Source of the DNA: Alphaproteobacteria bacterium
GTDB taxonomy: Bacteria; Pseudomonadota; Alphaproteobacteria; Rhizobiales; Beijerinckiaceae
Length of the DNA stretch: 61,080 bases
Assembly (NCBI GenBank): GCA_021325385.1
Contig: JAJPHH010000085.1
Coordinates: 1-61,080 of the forward strand
Direction of reading: 5' to 3'
The translations under genes were made by a program, and so were the position numbers. Of this stretch, positions 8,970-47,907 are shown piece after piece. Under the pieces are notes generated by a model. The model saw only the letters and a program-made list of their open reading frames with translations. It searched no databases and was not told the DNA's origin. Within the stretch, counting starts at the first letter, position 1; every line of letters starts with the position of its first letter.

Positions 8970-9054
8970 GGGGGAGTGTCCCGAGCGGCAAAGGGGGCGG
9001 ACTGTAAATCCGCTGGCTATGCCTTCGTAGGTTCGAGTCCTACCTCCCCCACCA
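8970..9054 (+). tRNA. tRNA-Tyr (GTA)
   Basis: The acceptor stem GGGGGAG pairs with CTCCCCC, followed by discriminator A and an encoded CCA at 9052-9054. The anticodon loop CTGTAAA gives GTA at 9004-9006. A long variable arm and a GTTCGAGTC T-loop complete a class II tRNA of 85 bases. Confidence 0.98.
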
Positions 9055-9146
9055 GCCAGATATTTGATTTCGAAACCGTTTGAGACCCGCTCCAATCCCA
9101 AATCCCGTGCTATGCATCTCGAGCGAGCTAGGCGGGTGGAGACGGC

Positions 9147-9644
9147 ATGAAGTTTGCGGCTTTCGGGGCGCTGTCGGTCGCCATAGGGTTGTCCGGCTCG
9201 GCTTACGCGGACGGGCTCCAAAAGGCGTATTCGGCCGTGGGAAGCTACCTCCAGAGTCGCGGCGGCGGCCTCGCCCCGTTCTATGCTTCGTGTCCGAAGG
9301 TCGATAACGACGAGTGGCAATCGGTCGCGTCAGCGCTGGTCGTACCTTTGAGCCAGACGGACAGCGCCGTGCTGGTCAACACCAGCATGTGCAACGGAGG
9401 CAACGGATCGGGGCAATATCTCGCGATCACGCAGCGCGGCGCAACGCGACTCGTCCTCGATGCCGGATTGGGCGATATGAGTTTCCTCGCCAGCAACGCC
9501 TATTTCTACGGCGACACTCTGACGCTCTACGGAAGCCGGTGGCTGCCAAACGACCCTCACTGCTGCCCCTCGAAGAAGGCTAACCTGGAGTTCAATCTCA
9601 AGACGGGCGGCCGGAAGCTCACCATTCTGAACGACAGCAACTGA
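9147..9644 (+). CDS. Secreted protein of unknown function
   Basis: The 165-residue protein starts with a clear signal peptide (hydrophobic core at 4-18, likely cleaved after AYA-D at about 22). The mature part has paired cysteines and ends with a segment, GSRWLPNDPHCCPSKKANLEF, that recalls the CCPS region of LppP/LprE-type lipoproteins, but that similarity is from memory and is weak. It lies just after tRNA-Tyr on the same strand and is the first gene of a lower-GC patch. Likely periplasmic. No enzymatic motif is visible. Confidence 0.7.
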   Translation: MKFAAFGALSVAIGLSGSAYADGLQKAYSAVGSYLQSRGGGLAPFYASCPKVDNDEWQSVASALVVPLSQTDSAVLVNTSMCNGGNGSGQYLAITQRGATRLVLDAGLGDMSFLASNAYFYGDTLTLYGSRWLPNDPHCCPSKKANLEFNLKTGGRKLTILNDSN

Positions 9645-9711
9645 TCGCCAACCACGCGGCTCTTTTCGATCGCTTGAAAGATGATGTGGCGAGAGCCCGG
9701 TGGCCGCAAGG

Positions 9712-10557
9712 TCAGGGCGACCCCACCTCGAAGACCGCGCCCTCGCAGCCGGGAGAAACTGCGAAGCCCGGCTTTACCTTCCGAATTTCATCCGACAGCA
9801 GGCGATCAAGCTTTTCATCGTCATGATCCGGATCATGGTGAAATGGAACCAACTCCTTTGCGCCGACATAGGCTGCGAATTCAAAAGCGTGTCGGTACGA
9901 GCTATGCCCCCATCCTACGCATCGTTCGTACTCCGCGTCCGTGTATTGGGCGTCGTGAATAAGAAGGTCGGCGTCGACTGCGAGATCGAAACCGGACACC
10001 CACTCGCGTCCAGGCCATTGGCCGCGGCGCAAACAAAGAGCAGGTTCGTGATCGCTCATATAGGCAATGACGCCGCCATCCCCCTCGATTCGGTACCCCA
10101 CCGTCGGCCCAGGATGGGAAACGAGCGACGTCAGAATGCAAAACGGCCCCACATCGAACTTCGACCGCGGCACGTGATGACAGGTGACCCTCGGCAGATC
10201 GCGAAGATGTACGGGAAACAGCGGCGGAGAGAGATAGCGTGAGAGGCGGGCCTCCAGCGGGAGCGCGCTGCTTGCGGGTCCCCAAATGTGAACGTCGATA
10301 GCCGGATCATAAATTGGCGGAAAAAATCCCAGCCCTTGAATATGATCCATGTGGAGATGGGTCAGAAGGATGTCGACGCGAGTCGTCGCTGCCGATAGTT
10401 GAGCCCCTAGTCGACGGATCCCGGTCCCGGCGTCCAAGACCAGGAGAGCGCCGTTTTTTGCACACACCAGGACTGCAGGCGTGTTTCCCCCGTAGCGCGT
10501 CGTTTCGGGCCCGGGCGCCGGGATTGAGCCGCGAGTTCCGTAAAGCTTGGCGCGCAT
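9712..10557 (-). CDS. Metallo-beta-lactamase-fold phosphodiesterase-like hydrolase
   Basis: The 281-residue protein opens with KLYGTRGSIPAPGPETTRYG, the hallmark start of a family of MBL-fold proteins related to cyclic phosphodiesterases such as PhnP. The metal-binding motif HLHMDH occurs at residues 67-72, a further aspartate lies in SDHEP, and the last histidine is near the C-terminus (PFHHDPDHDD). Its ATG overlaps the stop codon of the PAS gene by one base (TGATG), so the two are translationally coupled. Substrate is not determinable. The region has lower GC than its neighbours. The longer frame to 10782 lies inside the PAS gene and is rejected. Confidence 0.82.
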   Translation of the reverse strand: MRAKLYGTRGSIPAPGPETTRYGGNTPAVLVCAKNGALLVLDAGTGIRRLGAQLSAATTRVDILLTHLHMDHIQGLGFFPPIYDPAIDVHIWGPASSALPLEARLSRYLSPPLFPVHLRDLPRVTCHHVPRSKFDVGPFCILTSLVSHPGPTVGYRIEGDGGVIAYMSDHEPALCLRRGQWPGREWVSGFDLAVDADLLIHDAQYTDAEYERCVGWGHSSYRHAFEFAAYVGAKELVPFHHDPDHDDEKLDRLLSDEIRKVKPGFAVSPGCEGAVFEVGSP

Positions 10558-39549: not shown

Positions 39550-39814
39550 GCGAGCGCCTCCTTGGTCCGCTAGCGCTAGCCGACGGCGGCGCAGATGAAA
39601 AGACGCGCCTTCGCATTCCCGATCGTCGCCGCCTGCGCCGGCCGGTTTTGACGACGCCGCGCGGACCGTAAGTCAGCGGCGCGTCGCTGAGCGGGCATAG
39701 GATCTTTGAAATGGCTTCGCGATCAGCATGGCTTTGCGTTCGGCGACGCCACATTGAAAGGGCGGCGAGCGGGGAATAGCATTGCCCTGCTTGGCGCGAG
39801 ATGGGCTTGACGAG

Positions 39815-41425
39815 ATGCGAGCGGATCGGGTCGAAGCGCATGGGCGGCGGGGCGGACTGGCGGGCGTCCTTTCGCTCCTTTGCGCGGTCGCGGCGTTCTT
39901 GATTTTCTCGACGGCGTCGGCTGCCGCGGCGGCCGAGCATCGCATCGCGCTGGTAATCGGCAACGGCGCCTACAAGATCGCGCCGCGCCTCGACAATCCG
40001 GTGGACGACGCAAAGGCGGTCGCCGCCGCCTTCAAGCGGCTCGGCTTTCAGGTCTTCGAAGGCTATGATCTGACCGGCGACCAGATGCGCTCGGCTCTGT
40101 CGCAATTTTCCGCCGCGCTGGACGGATCGGACGCGGCTTTGGTCTATTATTCAGGCCACGGCGTTGCGCTGGACGGCGAGAACTACTTGCTGCCGACCGA
40201 CATCGACCCGAAGACGCCGAGCGATCTCGATCTCAACGCGATCAGCGCCTCGCAGGTTCTGCGGCAAATGCGCCGCGAGGAACGAGCGATCGTGCTCATT
40301 CTCGACGCCTGCCGCGAAGACCCGTTCGCGCAGGAGCTGGCGCGGACGAAAAGCCGGGCGATCATCGGCGCGCGCGGCCTCAATCCGATCGAGGGCGACC
40401 TTGCTCGCGGCGCCCTGATCGCCTTCGCCACCGATCCGAACAGCGTCGCCTTCGACGGCCCGCCGGGCGGACACAGCCCCTTCACCAAGGCGCTGCTCAA
40501 TCATCTCGCAGATCCCGGCGTGCCGATCGAGACGGTGATGTCGCGCGTAAGGTCGGAAGTCTGGGAAGCGACCAAGAACAAGCAGCTCCCCTGGGTCAAC
40601 ACCTCGATCATCGGCGAATTCGAACTCAATCCGAAGCCCGCGCCCGTGGTCGCGGCGGCCAGCCCGCCCCCGGCGCCGGAAAATCAGTCGACGGAAAATC
40701 TGCTGTGGGAATCGGCGGAGCATTCCAATCTCGCCGCCGATTACCAAGCCTATCTCGACGCTTTTCCAAAGGGCGTGTTCGCGCAGATGGCGCGAAATCG
40801 CATCGCCGCCTTGACGGCGCCGGACGCGGCGGCCTCGACGCCGAGCCCGTCGCGAACGATGAAATCCGACAATGACGCCGCTTTGGCCGAGCAGGGGCTC
40901 GATCTCGGGCTCGCCGACCGCAGGGAGCTGCAACTGCGCTTGGCGGCGCTGAAATTCGACGCCGGTCCGGCGGACGGCGAATTCGGCGACAAGGCGCGCG
41001 CCGCCATTCGCGCCTGGCAGGCGCGCCACGGCCTGGCGCCGACCGGCTATTTCGACGCGCCGCAAGTGGCGATGCTGAAGCAGGAAAGCGAGGAGGCTTA
41101 CCAGCGCCTGATCGCCGCGCCGCCGCCCCGCGTCCAAAAAGCGCCGGCGATCGTCAAGGCGCCCGCAACAGTCGCGCCCGCGCCCCTCATCGAACAGCCG
41201 CGCCGTCGGGCGCAGCGGAAGCGGCCGGATTGCTGGGACGATCCGACCTGCGGCGCAGCCCATCGGCAAGCGCATGCGCCGGCGATCGAAGCGCCGGCGC
41301 GCGAAGCCGCAAAGCCGGCGCAGCATCCGGCGACGGATCAGTTCCTCGGCGGATGCCAAGAGGGCTTCCACAATGTCCCGGCGCCGACGCCTTCCGGCTA
41401 TCGCTGCGTCCAGAACGGGTACTGA
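39815..41425 (+). CDS. Caspase-family (C14) protein with peptidoglycan-binding-like domain
   Basis: The 536-residue protein has a signal or anchor sequence (13-40), then a caspase-like domain starting HRIALVIGNGAYK, with catalytic His115 in YYSGHG and Cys166 in LDACRE. A linker with the WESAEHSNLAADYQAYLDAFPKG-type segment near 300 follows. Then comes a peptidoglycan-binding-like domain (about 375-440: LAALKFDAGPADGEFG, AIRAWQARHGL). The last 30 residues contain four cysteines, one adjacent to a PTPSGYRC motif. It may be a periplasmic cysteine protease tied to the wall. The ATG at 39815 is used; a TTG at 39782 precedes it. Confidence 0.87.
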   Translation: MRADRVEAHGRRGGLAGVLSLLCAVAAFLIFSTASAAAAAEHRIALVIGNGAYKIAPRLDNPVDDAKAVAAAFKRLGFQVFEGYDLTGDQMRSALSQFSAALDGSDAALVYYSGHGVALDGENYLLPTDIDPKTPSDLDLNAISASQVLRQMRREERAIVLILDACREDPFAQELARTKSRAIIGARGLNPIEGDLARGALIAFATDPNSVAFDGPPGGHSPFTKALLNHLADPGVPIETVMSRVRSEVWEATKNKQLPWVNTSIIGEFELNPKPAPVVAAASPPPAPENQSTENLLWESAEHSNLAADYQAYLDAFPKGVFAQMARNRIAALTAPDAAASTPSPSRTMKSDNDAALAEQGLDLGLADRRELQLRLAALKFDAGPADGEFGDKARAAIRAWQARHGLAPTGYFDAPQVAMLKQESEEAYQRLIAAPPPRVQKAPAIVKAPATVAPAPLIEQPRRRAQRKRPDCWDDPTCGAAHRQAHAPAIEAPAREAAKPAQHPATDQFLGGCQEGFHNVPAPTPSGYRCVQNGY

Positions 41426-42695: not shown

Positions 42696-42780
42696 GCCCA
42701 GGTGGCGGAATTGGTAGACGCACTGGTTTCAGGTACCAGCGGCGCAAGCCGTGGAGGTTCGAGTCCTCTCCTGGGCACCA
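42696..42780 (+). tRNA. tRNA-Leu (CAG)
   Basis: Acceptor GCCCAGG pairs with CCTGGGC, followed by A and encoded CCA. The anticodon loop TTCAGGT reads CAG at 42729-42731. The long variable arm (GGCGCAAGCC region) is expected of leucine tRNA. The last 17 bases are repeated at 44667-44683. Confidence 0.98.
42764..42780 (+). other. attL-like repeat in tRNA-Leu 3' end
   Basis: TCCTCTCCTGGGCACCA, the T-arm end, acceptor strand and CCA of tRNA-Leu, forms the left copy of the direct repeat. Confidence 0.7.
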
Positions 42781-42811
42781 GGGCTAGACATTCCCCTGAC
42801 ATCCCAAATAG

Positions 42812-43315
42812 ATGAGCGATTGCCGAGCGTTGCGCCGTCCAAGGTGGTCAACATCGGTGGTCAATTACTGTCAGCGCTGCATACTGTTCACTTTTGGAAG
42901 GTCTCAGCGTCAAGCGATGGCAATTAGGCTCGATCGATGGACCGACGATGCGGAATATTCCTTTCTGACGGACCCTCGAACTATTTCAGGCTGGGCGGCA
43001 GGGGATGCGATCCCATTCAATTGTCGTGTAAGCAAACCCGAAGCTGAAAGGTCGATGGCTCAGACCGGCACGCCGGCACCAGCATCCGTCGCTCGGCAAT
43101 CGAACCTTTCCACCTGCGTCCTCTGCAAAGGAGCCAGACTTATTTCGCGGGATTGGAGATCAAATCAAGGCTCAGCAGCAGCAGAACGGCGCGAGGCAGG
43201 GGCAGGCATGCTCTTGGTGTTCCCACGCGCTGAATGCATTTCAAATGACCCTCAGAGGAGCCTCAAGTCGTCGAGCATGACCGTTAAACGCTTCAGAGAT
43301 ACAGGGGGTCGATAA
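42812..43315 (+). CDS. Small protein of unknown function with two CxxC motifs (island gene 1)
   Basis: I do not recognise this 167-residue protein. It is open for 168 codons in DNA of modest GC, while the other two forward frames are broken. It ends 6 bases before the next gene, so the two are likely co-expressed. Two CxxC pairs (Cys20/Cys23 in CQRC and Cys102/Cys105 in CVLC) could build a split zinc ribbon. That argues for the ATG at 42812; the ATG at 42917 would give a 132-residue protein without the first pair. Neither start has a strong ribosome site. The C-terminus is Ser/Arg-rich. Confidence 0.5.
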   Translation: MSDCRALRRPRWSTSVVNYCQRCILFTFGRSQRQAMAIRLDRWTDDAEYSFLTDPRTISGWAAGDAIPFNCRVSKPEAERSMAQTGTPAPASVARQSNLSTCVLCKGARLISRDWRSNQGSAAAERREAGAGMLLVFPRAECISNDPQRSLKSSSMTVKRFRDTGGR

Positions 43316-43321
43316 ATCGCG

Positions 43322-44518
43322 ATGGTATCTTCATTCCTGCACAAGAGTATCGTCGTTGACGTGGACGAGAGGACATGGCCGGAGAAATCGGTCCCAACCC
43401 AATTAAAAGGCGCTTCAGGTATCCATACAATTGACGTTGGCGGCGCGCTTCACATGCTCGGGACGCTGACTATGCCGAATATTCTCTCACCGGCATCCCC
43501 AGCGCTCTTTTGGGCTTGGCTGAGATATTTTCTCGCTCCTGCGCCGTCTTCCGAGCTACGAATCACGATGGACTTTTCCGACCTTGATCCCCATCAGAAA
43601 GGAGTTCTGAGCGATGACTTTGGTGTCGCCATAGCAACCAAATGGATGCTTGATCGATTCGGAGCATTTACCCATATCGTCGATGGGCGTCGTTTTGCCA
43701 ACCAGTTCACTCATCTCCTTCGTAAGAAGCGCAAATCAAAAGCCAAAGTGGGCATGAGCAAGGCTCCCGATTTCGTCATGCGAGATGCGACCGGCAAATG
43801 GCATGTGCTTGAATGCAAGGGGACGCAAACCAGCCGCGATTACCAGCGGAGAGTATTGGCGACCGCAATGGTTCAGAAGCGTGCACTCCAACTTGTAGGG
43901 TCTATCCGAGGGGAACAACTTGCTTCTTCGCTATACATAGCGAACGAACAGGACAAGACCTCGTCGCATCTTAAAGTAGTTGATCCGGACAATGAAGAAC
44001 CACTGATCCGTTTGACAGGGCAGCATGCCGGCGAGATGGAGGAAAAAGCTAACAGACTTGCAATAGCTCAGGCTCTCGGCTCAATTGGACTTAACGAAAT
44101 TGCCGTGGAGATGACCTTACCCCCCAACATCGACGAGCCAAATGAATTGTTGCTGCCGAGTGAGCTTTATCGACTTCGTTCCCCGCGAGAGGGTCGTGTT
44201 GCTAGCGCTAAGGAGCAAGTTCGGGCTCGTAATCTAAACCAATTTATGCACCGTCATCACCGGTACGAAGGCAGAGACGTCGAATTTGATCTCCCTCCGA
44301 GGGGTATCCACTTTCGGTTTAGAAAGGCACGTCTCCGCCAAGGCGTTTCTGCCGATTTGCTCACCGAGCTTGCCGCAACGGATGGGCTCCAAGAGGATAA
44401 CGTGGATAGCCAGATAAAACCCTATACTGCCGAGGCAGGAATCGTGCTGCAGACCAGAGACCGACAGACATCCCTCGCTTTTGGTGACGTCTTCTACTCG
44501 GAGTTGACCTGGTCATAA
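43322..44518 (+). CDS. Protein with PD-(D/E)xK nuclease-like motif (island gene 2)
   Basis: This 398-residue protein is not a family I can name. Residues 95-113 (VLSDDFGVAIATKWM) look like the acidic helix that opens many PD-(D/E)xK folds. Pro149-Asp150 (SKAPDFVMRD) and Glu164-Cys165-Lys166 (HVLECKG), 13 residues apart, give the core motif, followed by basic, glutamine-rich helices. The remaining ~200 residues show no motif I recognise. No membrane segment or signal is present. As cargo of a small island, a defence-type or recombination-type nuclease is plausible, but unproven. Confidence 0.8.
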   Translation: MVSSFLHKSIVVDVDERTWPEKSVPTQLKGASGIHTIDVGGALHMLGTLTMPNILSPASPALFWAWLRYFLAPAPSSELRITMDFSDLDPHQKGVLSDDFGVAIATKWMLDRFGAFTHIVDGRRFANQFTHLLRKKRKSKAKVGMSKAPDFVMRDATGKWHVLECKGTQTSRDYQRRVLATAMVQKRALQLVGSIRGEQLASSLYIANEQDKTSSHLKVVDPDNEEPLIRLTGQHAGEMEEKANRLAIAQALGSIGLNEIAVEMTLPPNIDEPNELLLPSELYRLRSPREGRVASAKEQVRARNLNQFMHRHHRYEGRDVEFDLPPRGIHFRFRKARLRQGVSADLLTELAATDGLQEDNVDSQIKPYTAEAGIVLQTRDRQTSLAFGDVFYSELTWS

Positions 44519-44550
44519 TCGAGCCAGCTTTGGATTAACGGTGATCGAAA

Positions 44551-44703
44551 ATGAGCACGAACTTTGGCAGGTTTGAAAAAAGCGAGACGATAGTAGTGTA
44601 CATCCTTTGGGCGCTATTCGCAAGTAGACGACAAAATATCAAAGGATTGGCGCTTCGCGATCGCGATCCTCTCCTGAGCACCATCGCAAAAATCAACAAT
44701 TGA
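44551..44703 (+). CDS. Possible 50-residue ORF reading through the right repeat
   Basis: An ATG at 44551 opens 50 codons (MSTNFGRFEKSETIVVYILW...) and ends at TGA 44701-44703. Its last ~12 codons read through the right att repeat, so the C-terminus would be created by the integration event. It lacks a good ribosome site and similarity I can recognise, so it may be a gene remnant rather than a real gene. Confidence 0.25.
   Translation: MSTNFGRFEKSETIVVYILWALFASRRQNIKGLALRDRDPLLSTIAKINN
44667..44683 (+). other. attR-like repeat
   Basis: TCCTCTCCTGAGCACCA matches 16 of 17 bases of the tRNA-Leu end, in direct orientation. It is about 45 bases from the end of the PIN-domain gene. Confidence 0.7.
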
Positions 44704-44730
44704 ATTACCTTGGGCGCGCTATTTCACCGG

Positions 44731-45147
44731 TTAGGACACCAGCCTGAAACCGGCGACGGCAAAGTGGTGATCGAAGCTATAGGCGCGGTGAATGCGCGCC
44801 CGCTTCATAATTACAAAGCTGGTTGCGTCCACGGCTGAGAGTTTGTGCAGGTCCGAACGCCGAAAGTACTCCCACGATTGCTCGAGGTCGCGCAGCTCAC
44901 ATGACAGAACTTTTATCACGCCAGGCCTGTAGACGGCTTCTTTCCATGCCAGCGCCACGTCACGAGCGGCATTGCGGTCGAGAAATGTGAATGTCTCGAT
45001 TACGACCGGAATTGAGGTATGAAGGCTCGCCCCTGCCTCCTGCAGGAGCCCCCACTGCTCACGCGCCTGCGCATGCAATGGATCGCGCGATAGAGCCAGC
45101 GCAATCCACGCTCCGCTATCGACGAAAACCGCCTCCCCCCGCCGCAT
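44731..45147 (-). CDS. PIN-domain toxin (VapC type)
   Basis: PIN-domain toxins are Mg-dependent ribonucleases. The 138-residue protein has the conserved acidic residues Asp10 (FVDSGAWIAL), Glu51 (VVIETFTF), Asp107 (SAVDATSF) and Asp126 (YSFDHHF). Its ATG overlaps the stop of the upstream antitoxin gene by one base (TGATG), the usual coupling of vapBC-type pairs. The target RNA is unknown. It lies just outside the right repeat of the island, convergent with it. Confidence 0.9.
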   Translation of the reverse strand: MRRGEAVFVDSGAWIALALSRDPLHAQAREQWGLLQEAGASLHTSIPVVIETFTFLDRNAARDVALAWKEAVYRPGVIKVLSCELRDLEQSWEYFRRSDLHKLSAVDATSFVIMKRARIHRAYSFDHHFAVAGFRLVS

Positions 45148-45365
45148 CAGGGTTCGTCGTGGACGCTGTCATGCTCGATCGAGGTCTGTTTTGGCTCACC
45201 GTCCCAAAGCGCCGCCGGACCGGTCGACTGGGGCCGGAGCACGACCTTGCGGATCGCCTCGCGTATCAAATCCGCAACGCTACGGCCGGACCGCGCCGCG
45301 GCCTGGCGCAAGCCTTCGAGCTCTTCCTTGGGAAGATAAACCTTGGTCTTCTCCATGTATGTCAA
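45147..45365 (-). CDS. Ribbon-helix-helix antitoxin (VapB/CopG type)
   Basis: The 72-residue protein has the ribbon-helix-helix DNA-binding domain at the N-terminus: a strand (KTKVYLPKE) followed by helices (LEGLRQAAARSG, then VADLIREAIRKVV). The acidic tail (about 45-72) would occupy the toxin active site. The gene precedes the PIN toxin with a one-base overlap, so the two form an operon the antitoxin probably represses. An ATG at codon 4 (MEKTKVYL) is an alternative start. Confidence 0.9.
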   Translation of the reverse strand: MTYMEKTKVYLPKEELEGLRQAAARSGRSVADLIREAIRKVVLRPQSTGPAALWDGEPKQTSIEHDSVHDEP

Positions 45366-45497: not shown

Positions 45498-46736
45498 TCA
45501 TCGATCAACGCCCCCGATTTGCCCGCGGCGCTCATACAGATCCCCCTCCTCCGGCGTGATCGCCGCGACCCTGTCTGCGGGAATGTCGCCGGGCAGATTG
45601 GGCGGGCCGTAGGGGACGTCATCGACGCCGAACACTCTGCCCGGCCGGCCTTTCTTCTTCAGCACGGACCAATGGACTCTTTCATTGATATGCTCGAAAG
45701 CGTCGTCGGTCCGGTTCAAGAAAAGCCCGTGCATGACGGCGGCCGGCGACAGAACCCGGCGAAGATGGGGCCAAGCGTGATCGATCGGCCAGCCGAGCGT
45801 CGAATCGTAGACTTCGCCGTCGACGCTTGCTCGCGCCGCCACGGCGCGCGCCGCCTCGGTATCGAACTCCAAGCCGGTCAGGGCCTGCAACCGCGCCATC
45901 ATCCAGACAAGCGCGACGTCCGAAAGCCGCGCGTCGGCCTCGCCGCCGCCGATATTGCCATGGTCGCCGGCGAACCAAGTCTGCTCGACGCGCCCTTTCG
46001 GCGATTGGCCCCTTCTGATCGTCCAAAAGGTCGGAACAAAGGGGCGCCGCCGCTCGTCGATCGCGACGGCGTGCAAACCGAACTCGACATGGTCGCCGAA
46101 GCTCGTGTCGTGAAAGCCCAGACTGAGCAAGGCGATATAGCGCGCGAGGGGCGCCAGTCCGAAGCCGGCCGGCACGCCGTACGAACCGACCGTGTCCCAA
46201 ACGCCGACGCACTTGACCCTATTGTCGGCATGCGTCTCGCCGGCGTCGCGCATCAGCCGCAAATCTTGCATCGCCTCTTTATCGGCGCCGCTGGCTTTTT
46301 CGGGCGCGGCGCGCTTCGCCGGCGCCACCCGGTAATTGGCCCAAGCGACCTCCAATTTCGCCGGATCGGGCCGGCGGACGATTCCCGACGCGCCGATCAA
46401 GCCGACCAAAGCGCGGGCGGCGTATGCGCCTCTCGAGAAGCCGAGCGCGAAGACATCGTCGCCCTGCTCGTAAAGATCGACCAGCGACGAATAGGCGTCG
46501 AGCACGATCTGTTTGAGGCCGAGGCCGATCGAGCCGCCGAGCCAATGTTTGATCACGTCCGGCTCCGCCCCGACGCCTTTGTGATAGACGACGCGCTGTT
46601 CCATCGCGGCGTTGGTGGTCTTCAGGAGCGGCGCGCCGGCGCCGACATTGGCCGGATCCAATTTGGCGACATTGGTCGGCTCGCCGACCCCTTCCTGGTC
46701 CCACGTGCCGTCGATGAGGATGACGATGCGCTTCAT
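45498..46736 (-). CDS. DUF2235 alpha/beta-hydrolase (Tle1-like phospholipase domain)
   Basis: The 412-residue protein carries the DUF2235 domain, shared with type VI lipase effectors of the Tle1 group. The start KRIVILIDGTWDQEG is typical, the nucleophile elbow is GFSRG (99-103, Ser101), and the second block GVWDTVGSYGVP is also characteristic. No type VI genes, signal peptide or immunity gene are nearby, so it is more likely a house enzyme than an effector. It is single, with MucR 96 bases further on the same strand. Confidence 0.88.
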   Translation of the reverse strand: MKRIVILIDGTWDQEGVGEPTNVAKLDPANVGAGAPLLKTTNAAMEQRVVYHKGVGAEPDVIKHWLGGSIGLGLKQIVLDAYSSLVDLYEQGDDVFALGFSRGAYAARALVGLIGASGIVRRPDPAKLEVAWANYRVAPAKRAAPEKASGADKEAMQDLRLMRDAGETHADNRVKCVGVWDTVGSYGVPAGFGLAPLARYIALLSLGFHDTSFGDHVEFGLHAVAIDERRRPFVPTFWTIRRGQSPKGRVEQTWFAGDHGNIGGGEADARLSDVALVWMMARLQALTGLEFDTEAARAVAARASVDGEVYDSTLGWPIDHAWPHLRRVLSPAAVMHGLFLNRTDDAFEHINERVHWSVLKKKGRPGRVFGVDDVPYGPPNLPGDIPADRVAAITPEEGDLYERRGQIGGVDR

Positions 46737-46832: not shown

Positions 46833-47234
46833 CTACTTCCGTCGCCCCCGCCCCAGCCCCATCTTTTTGGCCAGCGTCGATCGCGTCACCGCATAGGCCG
46901 GCGCGACCATCGGATAGTCGGTCGGCAGGCTCCATTTGGACCGATAGCGTTCAGGCGAAAGGTCGTGCTGAGCGCGCAAATGCCGTTTCAGCGACTTGAA
47001 TTTCTGGCCGCATTCGAGGCAGACGATGTTGTCCTTGAACACCGACTTCTTTGCCGGCACGGCCGGAATCGGGACTTCCGGCTCGGCGATTGCGGCCTCG
47101 CTGGAAAGCCGCGCGAACGCGGCGTACACCTCGCCGATCAAGGCGGACAGCTCGTTTTTCGGCAAGGAATTATTGGCCACAAACGCCGAAACGATCTTTG
47201 CGGCGAGTTCGACCCGGTAGCGTTCGTCCGGCAT
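46833..47234 (-). CDS. MucR/Ros-family transcriptional regulator
   Basis: MucR/Ros proteins are zinc-finger regulators of surface polysaccharides, motility and symbiosis or virulence in Hyphomicrobiales. The 133-residue protein has the ligands Cys72, Cys75, His85 and His90 (VCLECGQKFKSLKRHL, AQH), followed by LSPERYRSKW and a basic C-terminus, and a helical N-terminal oligomerisation region. The ATG at 47234 (MPDERYRV) is the family-like start; the longer frame is rejected. Family members bind AT-rich DNA and often repress themselves. Confidence 0.93.
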   Translation of the reverse strand: MPDERYRVELAAKIVSAFVANNSLPKNELSALIGEVYAAFARLSSEAAIAEPEVPIPAVPAKKSVFKDNIVCLECGQKFKSLKRHLRAQHDLSPERYRSKWSLPTDYPMVAPAYAVTRSTLAKKMGLGRGRRK

Positions 47235-47403
47235 GATGCGACCTGCTGTTAAGCCTCCCCTTGCGCCGCATCTTTCGACAATCCGCCGATTTCGCCGCAA
47301 AGCCTGACCGAAGGCCGACGCCTGGGCAATTAAAAACGCCCGAGCGGGCGCATTATTCAGAAAATATTGTGGATGCGCGCTCGAAGCGTCGGCGCCGCCT
47401 CGG

Positions 47404-47907
47404 CTAATCGTCAAGCCGGCTCGCCCCCAAATCGACGTTCAGGAACCGCGCCAGGGCGTCGGCGACAAGCGTATGATCCTCGCGTTGCGGCAGACCCGAG
47501 ACAGTCACGGCCCCGACGCAGCCCAGGCCTTGCAGCGCGAGCGGGAAGGCGCCGCCATGGACGGCGTAATCGGCGAGCGGCAAGGCGTAGGCGATCTCCT
47601 GGCTGTTTCCCGCCAATTCGAGCGAGCGGCCGACCGCGTAGGACGAGCGCCACAGCCTGAGCACGGCATTGCGCTTGCGCCTGATCCATTCGGAATTGTC
47701 GGTCGTGCTGCCGGGCAGAGCGCAATGAAAGAGGGTACGGTCGCGGAGCGAAATGTCGATCGCGACCGGCGCATGGCGCGCCACCGCCATTTCGCGCAGA
47801 AGCGAACCGAGCGTCCAGGCGTCTTCCGGTCCGAATCGGACGAATAGAAGCAAGCGTTCTTGTTCGGCGAGACGACGGATGTCTTCTTCGAGAGAGGCTT
47901 TGTCCAT
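47404..47907 (-). CDS. Haem-degrading-domain protein of the UPF0303/HbpS type
   Basis: The 167-residue cytoplasmic protein is of the UPF0303 group within the GlcG/HbpS-like fold (PF03928). The start ATG 47907 (MDKASLEEDI) follows GGGGGGAA; the frame to 47922 adds five residues. Characteristic parts are LLFVRFGPEDAWTLGSLL, AIDISLRDRTLFHCALPG, the NAVLRLWRSSYAVG helix and the final HGGAFPLALQGLGCVGAVTV strand. A role in haem or cobalamin-adduct binding is inferred from distant relatives. Divergent from the cyclase gene. Confidence 0.85.
   Translation of the reverse strand: MDKASLEEDIRRLAEQERLLLFVRFGPEDAWTLGSLLREMAVARHAPVAIDISLRDRTLFHCALPGSTTDNSEWIRRKRNAVLRLWRSSYAVGRSLELAGNSQEIAYALPLADYAVHGGAFPLALQGLGCVGAVTVSGLPQREDHTLVADALARFLNVDLGASRLDD

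Follow-up and report, generated by a model that had tools for sequence, protein, structure and literature searches.

A 1.9-kb islet behind tRNA-Leu(CAG) of a Beijerinckiaceae genome, probably the integrase-deleted remnant of an integrative element with a predicted nuclease gene

We analysed a 61,080-nucleotide stretch of DNA (the window; contig C50, JAJPHH010000085.1) from the draft genome of an alphaproteobacterium of the family Beijerinckiaceae (GCA_021325385.1; 5.35 Mb, 97.9% complete). In this window a tRNA-Leu gene with the anticodon CAG is followed by a short islet that ends in a second copy of the tRNA 3' end. The islet holds two open reading frames (ORFs) of some length, of which ORF2 is the single credible gene, and is followed by a toxin-like and an antitoxin-like gene on the opposite strand (Table 1).

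Table 1. Features of the tRNA-Leu(CAG) locus in window coordinates
Feature	Position	Strand	Basis
tRNA-Leu (anticodon CAG), integration target	42696..42780	+	ARAGORN; Rfam tRNA
Proximal attachment repeat, the last 17 bases of the tRNA	42764..42780	+	repeat search
Left-end segment, homologous to G005 DNA at equal distance behind tRNA-Leu	42791..42859	+	alignment, profile
ORF1, 167 codons, probably not a gene	42812..43315	+	codon-position GC, frame scores, shuffles, searches
Direct repeat pair GGTGGTCAA spaced by 13 bp, probably arm-type sites for a lost integrase	42843..42864	+	9/10 identical
ORF2, 398 aa, probable PD-(D/E)xK nuclease of an unnamed family	43322..44518	+	alignment, AlphaFold2, Foldseek
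ORF2 codons 150-169, invariant motif D150, E164-C-K166-G-T-Q	43769..43828	+	32-row alignment
Distal attachment repeat, 16/17 identical	44667..44683	+	repeat search
PIN-domain toxin-like gene, first beyond the right repeat	44731..45147	-	PF01850
Ribbon-helix-helix antitoxin-like gene, paired with the PIN gene	45147..45365	-	PF01402

The 3'-terminal 17 bases of tRNA-Leu(CAG) recur once, in direct orientation and with 16 of 17 bases identical, at 44667-44683. This bears out an earlier note on the DNA, made from the sequence alone, and the copy is the sole further one: a search of both strands of the 61-kb window that allowed up to four mismatches gave none other. The match runs precisely up to the terminal CCA of the tRNA and extends on neither side. 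Such a copy is expected by chance at 6.1e-9 per position, or about 1.2e-4 per 20 kb. As a control we scanned the DNA that follows this tRNA in eight relatives, 208,705 bases in all (3.8 to 92.7 kb per relative), and found 0 copies of the 16-mer at up to two mismatches on both strands. A chance repeat was rejected on these two grounds, the low expectation and the empty control. The direct repeat is real.

What lies between the repeats is quickly described. No match to a recombinase was seen there, as the earlier note had also stated, nor any gene for integration or transfer, and beyond ORF1 and ORF2 no frame exceeds 60 aa. The GC content of ORF1 by codon position is.53/.60/.54, its codon score is no better than that of its other frames, and an open stretch as long as ORF1 arises in 97 of 2,000 shuffles. 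For ORF1 no Pfam family passes the cut-off (best E 0.22) and tblastn gives no match in 72,556 plasmid records, and the left-end sequence described below runs into it. Hence ORF1 was rejected as a partner gene, on codon-position GC, frame scores, shuffles and the lack of relatives, and the two adjacent genes claimed for the islet reduce to one. The nearest relative of ORF2, at locus L070, is preceded by a 155-aa frame (L070 7493-7960) that has no Pfam match at E 0.01 and carries an R-x4-H motif, which we take to resemble that of HEPN proteins. A derivation of ORF1 from this frame by decay was rejected as well, just two chance-level pieces (E 0.48 and 0.59) being alike.

ORF2 has the marks of a maintained gene. 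It is identical to its L070 relative at 273 of 398 residues (69%), and the two differ at 90/61/255 first, second and third codon positions (dN 0.22, dS not computable); from this third-position excess we conclude that ORF2 is under purifying selection. All 32 members of the family alignment A2 have the invariant residues D98, D99, D150, E164, C165, K166, G167, T168, Q169, Q185 and K186; L069 (the same DNA as L070), L079, L083, L092, L093, L104 and L105 are omitted from this alignment. A literature search returned no match for ECKGTQ, for six accessions of the ORF2 family, or for DUF6538, the integrase type discussed below.

The structure of ORF2 was modelled with AlphaFold2, at a mean predicted local distance difference test score (pLDDT) of 85.5 and a predicted template modelling score (pTM) of 0.88 for the full protein and of 81.3 and 0.75 for the core alone. 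The predicted architecture is an N-terminal domain, a PD-(D/E)xK core at about residues 90-205, and a C-terminal domain. Within the modelled core the order is helix-strand-strand-strand-helix-strand: a helix with D98/D99 is followed by strands carrying or following D150 and E164/K166 (among them 151-155 and 160-168), then by a helix with Q185/K186, the usual order of PD-(D/E)xK proteins. The D and the E-x-K of the PD-(D/E)xK motif are placed on consecutive strands. By our assignment, the first seven Foldseek rows for the full model are PD-(D/E)xK proteins, e.g., AdnA, McrC and Card1, and most of the 50 rows listed for the core are PD-(D/E)xK nucleases, including ACE1, BsaXI, AdnA, lambda exonuclease, McrC and SduA. 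Three results tell against the assignment. The best Foldseek E-values are 0.028 and 0.087, no match reaching 0.001; what we take to be sliding clamps make up about half of the 50 rows listed for the full model; and the 32 family members have no credible match in Pfam or NCBIfam (best E 0.037, in single members) and none in PADLOC. Six of the 32 match phrog_36857, to which no function is assigned (best E 1.5e-5). Overall we judge it quite likely that ORF2 has the PD-(D/E)xK nuclease fold.

The same tRNA gene is occupied elsewhere by a complete element. In Neorhizobium galegae HAMBI 1141 a 575-aa integrase frame begins at +87 nt behind tRNA-Leu(CAG) and the attachment (att) sequence has a second copy without mismatch 14,524 nt beyond the tRNA; with repeat words at its left and right ends, this is a complete element. 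Judging from its sequence motifs and from relatives annotated as integrases, the 575-aa frame would be a tyrosine recombinase of the DUF6538 type. The HAMBI 1141 locus (L183 1327-16279) is in fact a tandem: behind the 14.5-kb element and its intact integrase comes another left end, which holds integrase fragments; the att repeat at this locus extends over 53 bp.

In other occupants of this tRNA the integrase is incomplete or absent. N. galegae HAMBI 540 has just the first 195 integrase residues in the 40 kb examined. In G877, a genome of another family, two perfect 21-bp repeats of the tRNA end enclose a 2.15-kb islet (L120 7650-9803) that has a single long frame. At its start this frame matches DUF6538 (E 1.6e-4, which falls short of Pfam's cut-off) and, over the first 111 residues, the N. 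galegae integrase (53%), and no PF00589 domain was reported for the frame; beyond the integrase-like N-terminus, its C-terminal part resembles SEL1/TPR proteins. In G005, one of the eight relatives already mentioned, the traces are an integrase-like stretch of at most 23 codons (E 0.55) and a 40-aa integrase-like fragment 17.5 kb on. Together with the islet and the second unit of HAMBI 1141, this makes one complete and five integrase-deficient left ends, two of the five from N. galegae. None of the six PF00589 loci of the source genome is close to the N. galegae integrase (best 25.8% over 233 aa). In viral contigs 0 of 3 candidate stretches were confirmed to encode a DUF6538 integrase, and phages gave one partial match. 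In two viral contigs, L158 and L160, tRNA-Leu(CAG) and a further copy of its 3' end are separated by about 10.4 kb, and in one of the two that copy has one mismatch; neither contig has a match to the DUF6538 integrase.

The left end ties the islet to this group by way of G005. In a local alignment the left ends of the islet and G005 are identical at 42 of 59 bases at identical tRNA offset, the single pair with at least 30 identical bases among nine flanks (eight relatives compared). When 397 genomes sampled from the order were searched with the left end of G005, one match came up, in G877, directly behind tRNA-Leu(CAG); since it missed the source genome, that search is not sensitive. Profiles of the left ends were also built. 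One made from four rows (two N. galegae strains, G877 and G005, with the source genome excluded) has a single significant plus-strand match in the window, at 42791-42859, where model positions 11-79 fall on tRNA offsets 11-79 (E 2.8e-5 for the window, E 0.0017 for all loci). The score is 18.2 bits, against 7.5 for the best of 60 shuffled windows, and among 72 flanks behind tRNA-Leu 3' ends (62 of them viral contigs) the matches at E 0.1 are the islet and the training row G005. A three-row profile (two N. galegae strains and G877) matches G005 in register at E 3.1e-8. As it misses the islet, the homology is a chain, in which the islet is joined to G005 by alignment and G005 to the integrase-bearing kind by profile.

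All six left ends share a further feature, a pair of direct repeats 13 bp apart at tRNA offset 63-68. The repeat word is GGTGGTCAA in the islet (just two exact copies in the window), TGTGCTACAA in G877 and TGTAACAA in N. galegae, and the two repeats agree at 9 or 10 of 10 positions in five left ends and at 8 of 10 in G005. In the islet, where the pair stands at offset 63 with 9/10 identity, shuffles of the flank reach 9 in 3 of 2,000 cases; 0 of 66 control flanks reach 9/10 and one reaches 8/10. At the right end there are two repeat words in N. galegae and one, with one mismatch, in G877. On this analysis the pairs are probably arm-type integrase sites. Among 199 genomes of the family the arm pattern was found in G005 only, and its tRNA-anchored version in none of 385 genomes of the class. 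No left end and no ORF2 relative was found in 59 viral-contig stretches with a tRNA 3' end; the single match of the arm motif in viral contigs lies inside a coding frame of an unrelated contig and was dropped.

We read the islet as the integrase-deleted remnant of an integrative element of tRNA-Leu(CAG), with a probability of roughly three in four. An element of the tRNA-Leu(CAG)-targeting, DUF6538-type tyrosine-integrase kind would have inserted at the tRNA 3' end, a crossover within the last 17 tRNA bases producing both repeats. Its integrase gene would have begun about 87 bp behind the tRNA, just past the repeat pair that probably binds the integrase. A later deletion would have removed the integrase and other genes, leaving a cis-mobilizable anatomy in which the two att copies, the repeat pair on the left and a single gene under purifying selection remain; we infer this order of events. 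The decayed island that the earlier note had offered as one possibility thus gains support, from the match of the left end to G005, the match of G005 to the DUF6538-integrase kind and the common pair spaced by 13 bp. The account as a whole, an element of this type that lost its integrase and kept a predicted nuclease as cargo, is in our judgement the best explanation and likely, if less assured than the remnant itself.

In its anatomy the islet is like a cis-mobilizable element (CIME) as the term is defined in PMC5704250. Two att copies flank it as a 16/17 direct repeat, the integration and transfer genes are gone, the site is also used by complete elements, and N. galegae shows accretion there. 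It differs in being just 1.9 kb long with one gene and in that no right repeat word was found. The islet may well descend from a complete element that used this site: the chain from the islet through G005 to G877 and N. galegae supports it, as does the repeat pair; a direct profile without G005 fails. Compared with the complete HAMBI 1141 element, the islet has the same target gene, the same att core and a repeat pair 13 bp apart in the same place, and their left ends are linked through G005. The HAMBI 1141 element differs in its size of 14.5 kb, its intact integrase and its other cargo (no ORF2 relative in the stretch read), and direct left-end similarity to the islet is undetectable by profile.

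The genus gives no cleaner comparison. We located tRNA-Leu(CAG) in 8 of 10 other genus genomes (not in G007 and G008). Immediately downstream of the tRNA the flanks differ among the eight, and G002 and G006 have a common stretch about 4 kb further on; within the stretches examined, the right-flank genes adjoin this tRNA in none of the relatives. The empty-site proof proposed in the earlier note was thus sought in ten relatives and not obtained. On the other side of the tRNA, the window has a gene for a caspase-domain protein with a peptidoglycan-binding domain (39782-41425) and an aldo/keto reductase gene between an enoyl-CoA hydratase gene and tRNA-Leu; in G002 and G006 the enoyl-CoA hydratase gene is only about 115-135 bp from the tRNA.

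Several observations weigh against the remnant reading. The left-end link hinges on G005, itself chosen for its likeness to the islet, and the profile without G005 finds nothing in the islet at 42781-42900. The 13-bp spacing was picked after the ends had been inspected, and three of the six ends are from N. galegae. The right-end repeat word was not found in the islet, whose inner right end is unlike those of both G877 and N. galegae. A clean empty site was sought in the ten genus relatives and none was found, and both the reduced GC and the absence from relatives extend beyond the right repeat. The nearest ORF2 relative lies away from any tRNA (none in the 15 kb examined at L070). Finally, Sphingomonas gei, where an ORF2 relative does lie behind this tRNA, has an integrase of another type, lacks the repeat pair at its left end and shows no second att copy in the stretch examined.

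Some of these points favour another history, in which a low-GC gene arrived behind the tRNA by ordinary recombination and the repeat is accidental. The L070 relative between two metabolic genes, the low GC past the repeat and the silence of the G005-free profile at the islet all agree with it. A repeat with a chance expectation of about 1e-4 and 0 counterparts in eight relatives does not, nor does a left end in register with G005 together with a repeat pair, and we regard this history as very improbable. Alternatively, the islet might be no remnant but a living satellite: a streamlined mobile unit with one cargo gene that relies on the integrase of a helper element, acting in trans on its att and left arm sites. 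A second islet of similar size at the same tRNA (that of G877, with one frame, perfect 21-bp att copies and no PF00589), the retained left repeat pair and the tandem N. galegae units, the second of them defective, would fit such a satellite. However, the missing right repeat speaks against mobility in trans, the distal att copy carries one mismatch, no close integrase is found among the genome's six PF00589 loci, ORF2 is present in a single copy, and G877 retains an integrase N-terminus and so looks like decay. Hence the satellite with a borrowed integrase, also raised in the earlier note, loses ground for want of the right arm repeat, an intact right copy and a close integrase at any PF00589 locus (25.8% at best); we hold it to be improbable.

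GC is lower between the repeats than in the whole window (52.6% against 65.1%), as the earlier note had seen, but the drop does not end at the right repeat: it is 57.5% in 44684-45147 and 62.4% in 45148-45365. The genes of this interval form a VapBC-like PIN/ribbon-helix-helix pair (44731-45365), directly right of the distal repeat, and none of the 10 other genus genomes has a match to the PIN gene (44731-45147). Because GC is still low and this gene is absent from relatives, the right repeat may divide two acquired units and not end the foreign DNA. The acquired DNA might accordingly be a larger unit of about 42781-45365, the PIN/ribbon-helix-helix pair having come together with the islet or by accretion of the sort seen in N. 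galegae, with the right repeat an internal att between two units. There is, however, no third att copy in 18.3 kb downstream and no second left-end match in the window, and we rate a larger unit as possible, with less than an even chance.

ORF2 relatives are patchily distributed. By tblastn they occur in 8 of 72,556 plasmid records (87-98% query cover, 30-33% identity), two of which, H5 and H6, are Methylocystis parvus plasmids with the same length of 204,886 bases, and in 0 of 50,697 phage records. In a GTDB scan 37 of 81 candidate stretches were confirmed, L069 and L070 being the same DNA in two bins; in viral contigs 1 of 61 was. The shared 3,289 bases of L069 and L070 are identical in a Binataceae and a Xanthobacteraceae metagenome-assembled genome with like-named isolates, and one of the two bins is probably contaminated. 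The source genome has one copy of ORF2 and is itself the only one matched among 385 sampled genomes of the class; in the genus a weak match, split over frames, occurs in 1 of 10 relatives (G010). There a decayed ORF2 relative (L052 about 9500-10400) stands beside a TIR-domain WD40 protein. In E. coli genomes, the matches listed are to an insertion sequence element beside the gene, and none reaches 80% query cover.

The surroundings of these relatives vary. A tRNA is present in just 2 of the 38 loci scanned, S. gei and one other. S. gei, of another order than the source genome, has the ORF2 relative at the same site: a tyrosine integrase (PF13356, PF22022, PF00589) immediately follows tRNA-Leu(CAG), and the relative comes 2.7 kb from the tRNA, an arrangement that speaks for the remnant reading. 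The L070 gene has a luciferase-like monooxygenase gene on one side and a dihydroorotate-dehydrogenase-like gene on the other, with no tRNA nearby, so the ORF2 type of gene moves in more than one way. No neighbour is constant, the top family occurring in at most 5 of 44 loci in a tally that keeps at most two neighbours per side and omits proteins longer than 1,300 aa, shorter than 120 aa or more than 4 kb away, as well as L069, L081, L083, L101, L102, L105, L106 and the plasmid loci.

Defence genes often lie near these relatives. In 4 of 7 plasmid neighbourhoods a named defence or restriction gene lies within 6 kb of the ORF2 relative: dcm with DUF4928, dCTP deaminase, Shedu, and PaeR7I with an Eco57I-type methylase. 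At 1e-10, 168 PADLOC models were matched for 112 neighbours (31 genome loci) and 3 for 44 window proteins, a tally of models and not of proteins, with several models per family and a single chromosome as control, and hence not a rate. Ten neighbours were chosen after this tally, of which six, from 5 of 9 loci, matched: PDC-S06, BovA, MzaB and DruA (one locus), GajB and LmuA. The window itself is a point against a defence role, with no convincing defence gene near ORF2 (the 3 models for 44 proteins).

On balance we favour, with some reserve, a predicted defence nuclease that acts as a single gene; both the nuclease activity and the defence role are inferences. The protein would most likely cut invading DNA alone, with neither a methylase nor a fixed partner. 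Of the two-gene defence module with a PD-(D/E)xK protein suggested by the earlier note, the motif (invariant in 32 of 32) and relatives often near defence genes hold up, the cargo is one gene, and defence is a prediction. ORF2 could instead be a PD-(D/E)xK enzyme of DNA repair, plasmid upkeep or orphaned restriction, as fold-mates among repair and processing nucleases and relatives on eight plasmid records would allow. We find this rather unlikely given the patchy distribution, the changing neighbours, the defence genes near many relatives and the lack of a constant methylase partner.

Two kinds of known nuclease invite comparison. Shedu (SduA) is a single-gene PD-(D/E)xK defence nuclease, like ORF2 in its one-gene size and its core, and the Foldseek rows for the ORF2 core include SduA at E 0.67. 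However, 0 of 32 ORF2-family members match any PADLOC family at E 0.1, and PADLOC-DB includes Shedu models. The Cas4/RecB-like nucleases (ACE1, AdnA, lambda exonuclease) show a weak structural resemblance to the ORF2 core, with no significant match in sequence or fold, and the domains around the core are unmatched.

Elsewhere in the window, a Tle1-like phospholipase gene (45498-46736; PF09994, E 2e-66) and a Ros/MucR regulator gene (46833-47414) follow the PIN/ribbon-helix-helix pair; DNA matches to the phospholipase gene lie on other contigs of three genus genomes. At 9001-10500 GC drops to about 0.59 directly behind a tRNA-Tyr gene (8970-9054), possibly another tRNA-linked insertion.

An orphan islet that lacks an integrase has here been assigned a probable parent kind through its left end, which is a searchable signature. 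With its tRNA and displaced 3' fragment in direct orientation the islet is like the tRNA islands found by Islander, a search that, by the account of its method in PMC4383910, demands an integrase gene; as far as that account goes, islets of this kind would escape it together with their cargo. It is conceivable, if improbable, that alphaproteobacterial tRNA-Leu(CAG) genes house a guild of miniature integrase-free islands, each with att and arm sites and one cargo gene, which borrow DUF6538 integrases and spread single-gene defence nucleases, those of the ORF2 family among them. Were this so, island finders that demand an integrase would discard such islands. The ORF2 family itself is an unnamed, widespread group of stand-alone PD-(D/E)xK proteins, many of its members near anti-phage systems, and ORF2, if active, would be a compact one-gene defence nuclease.

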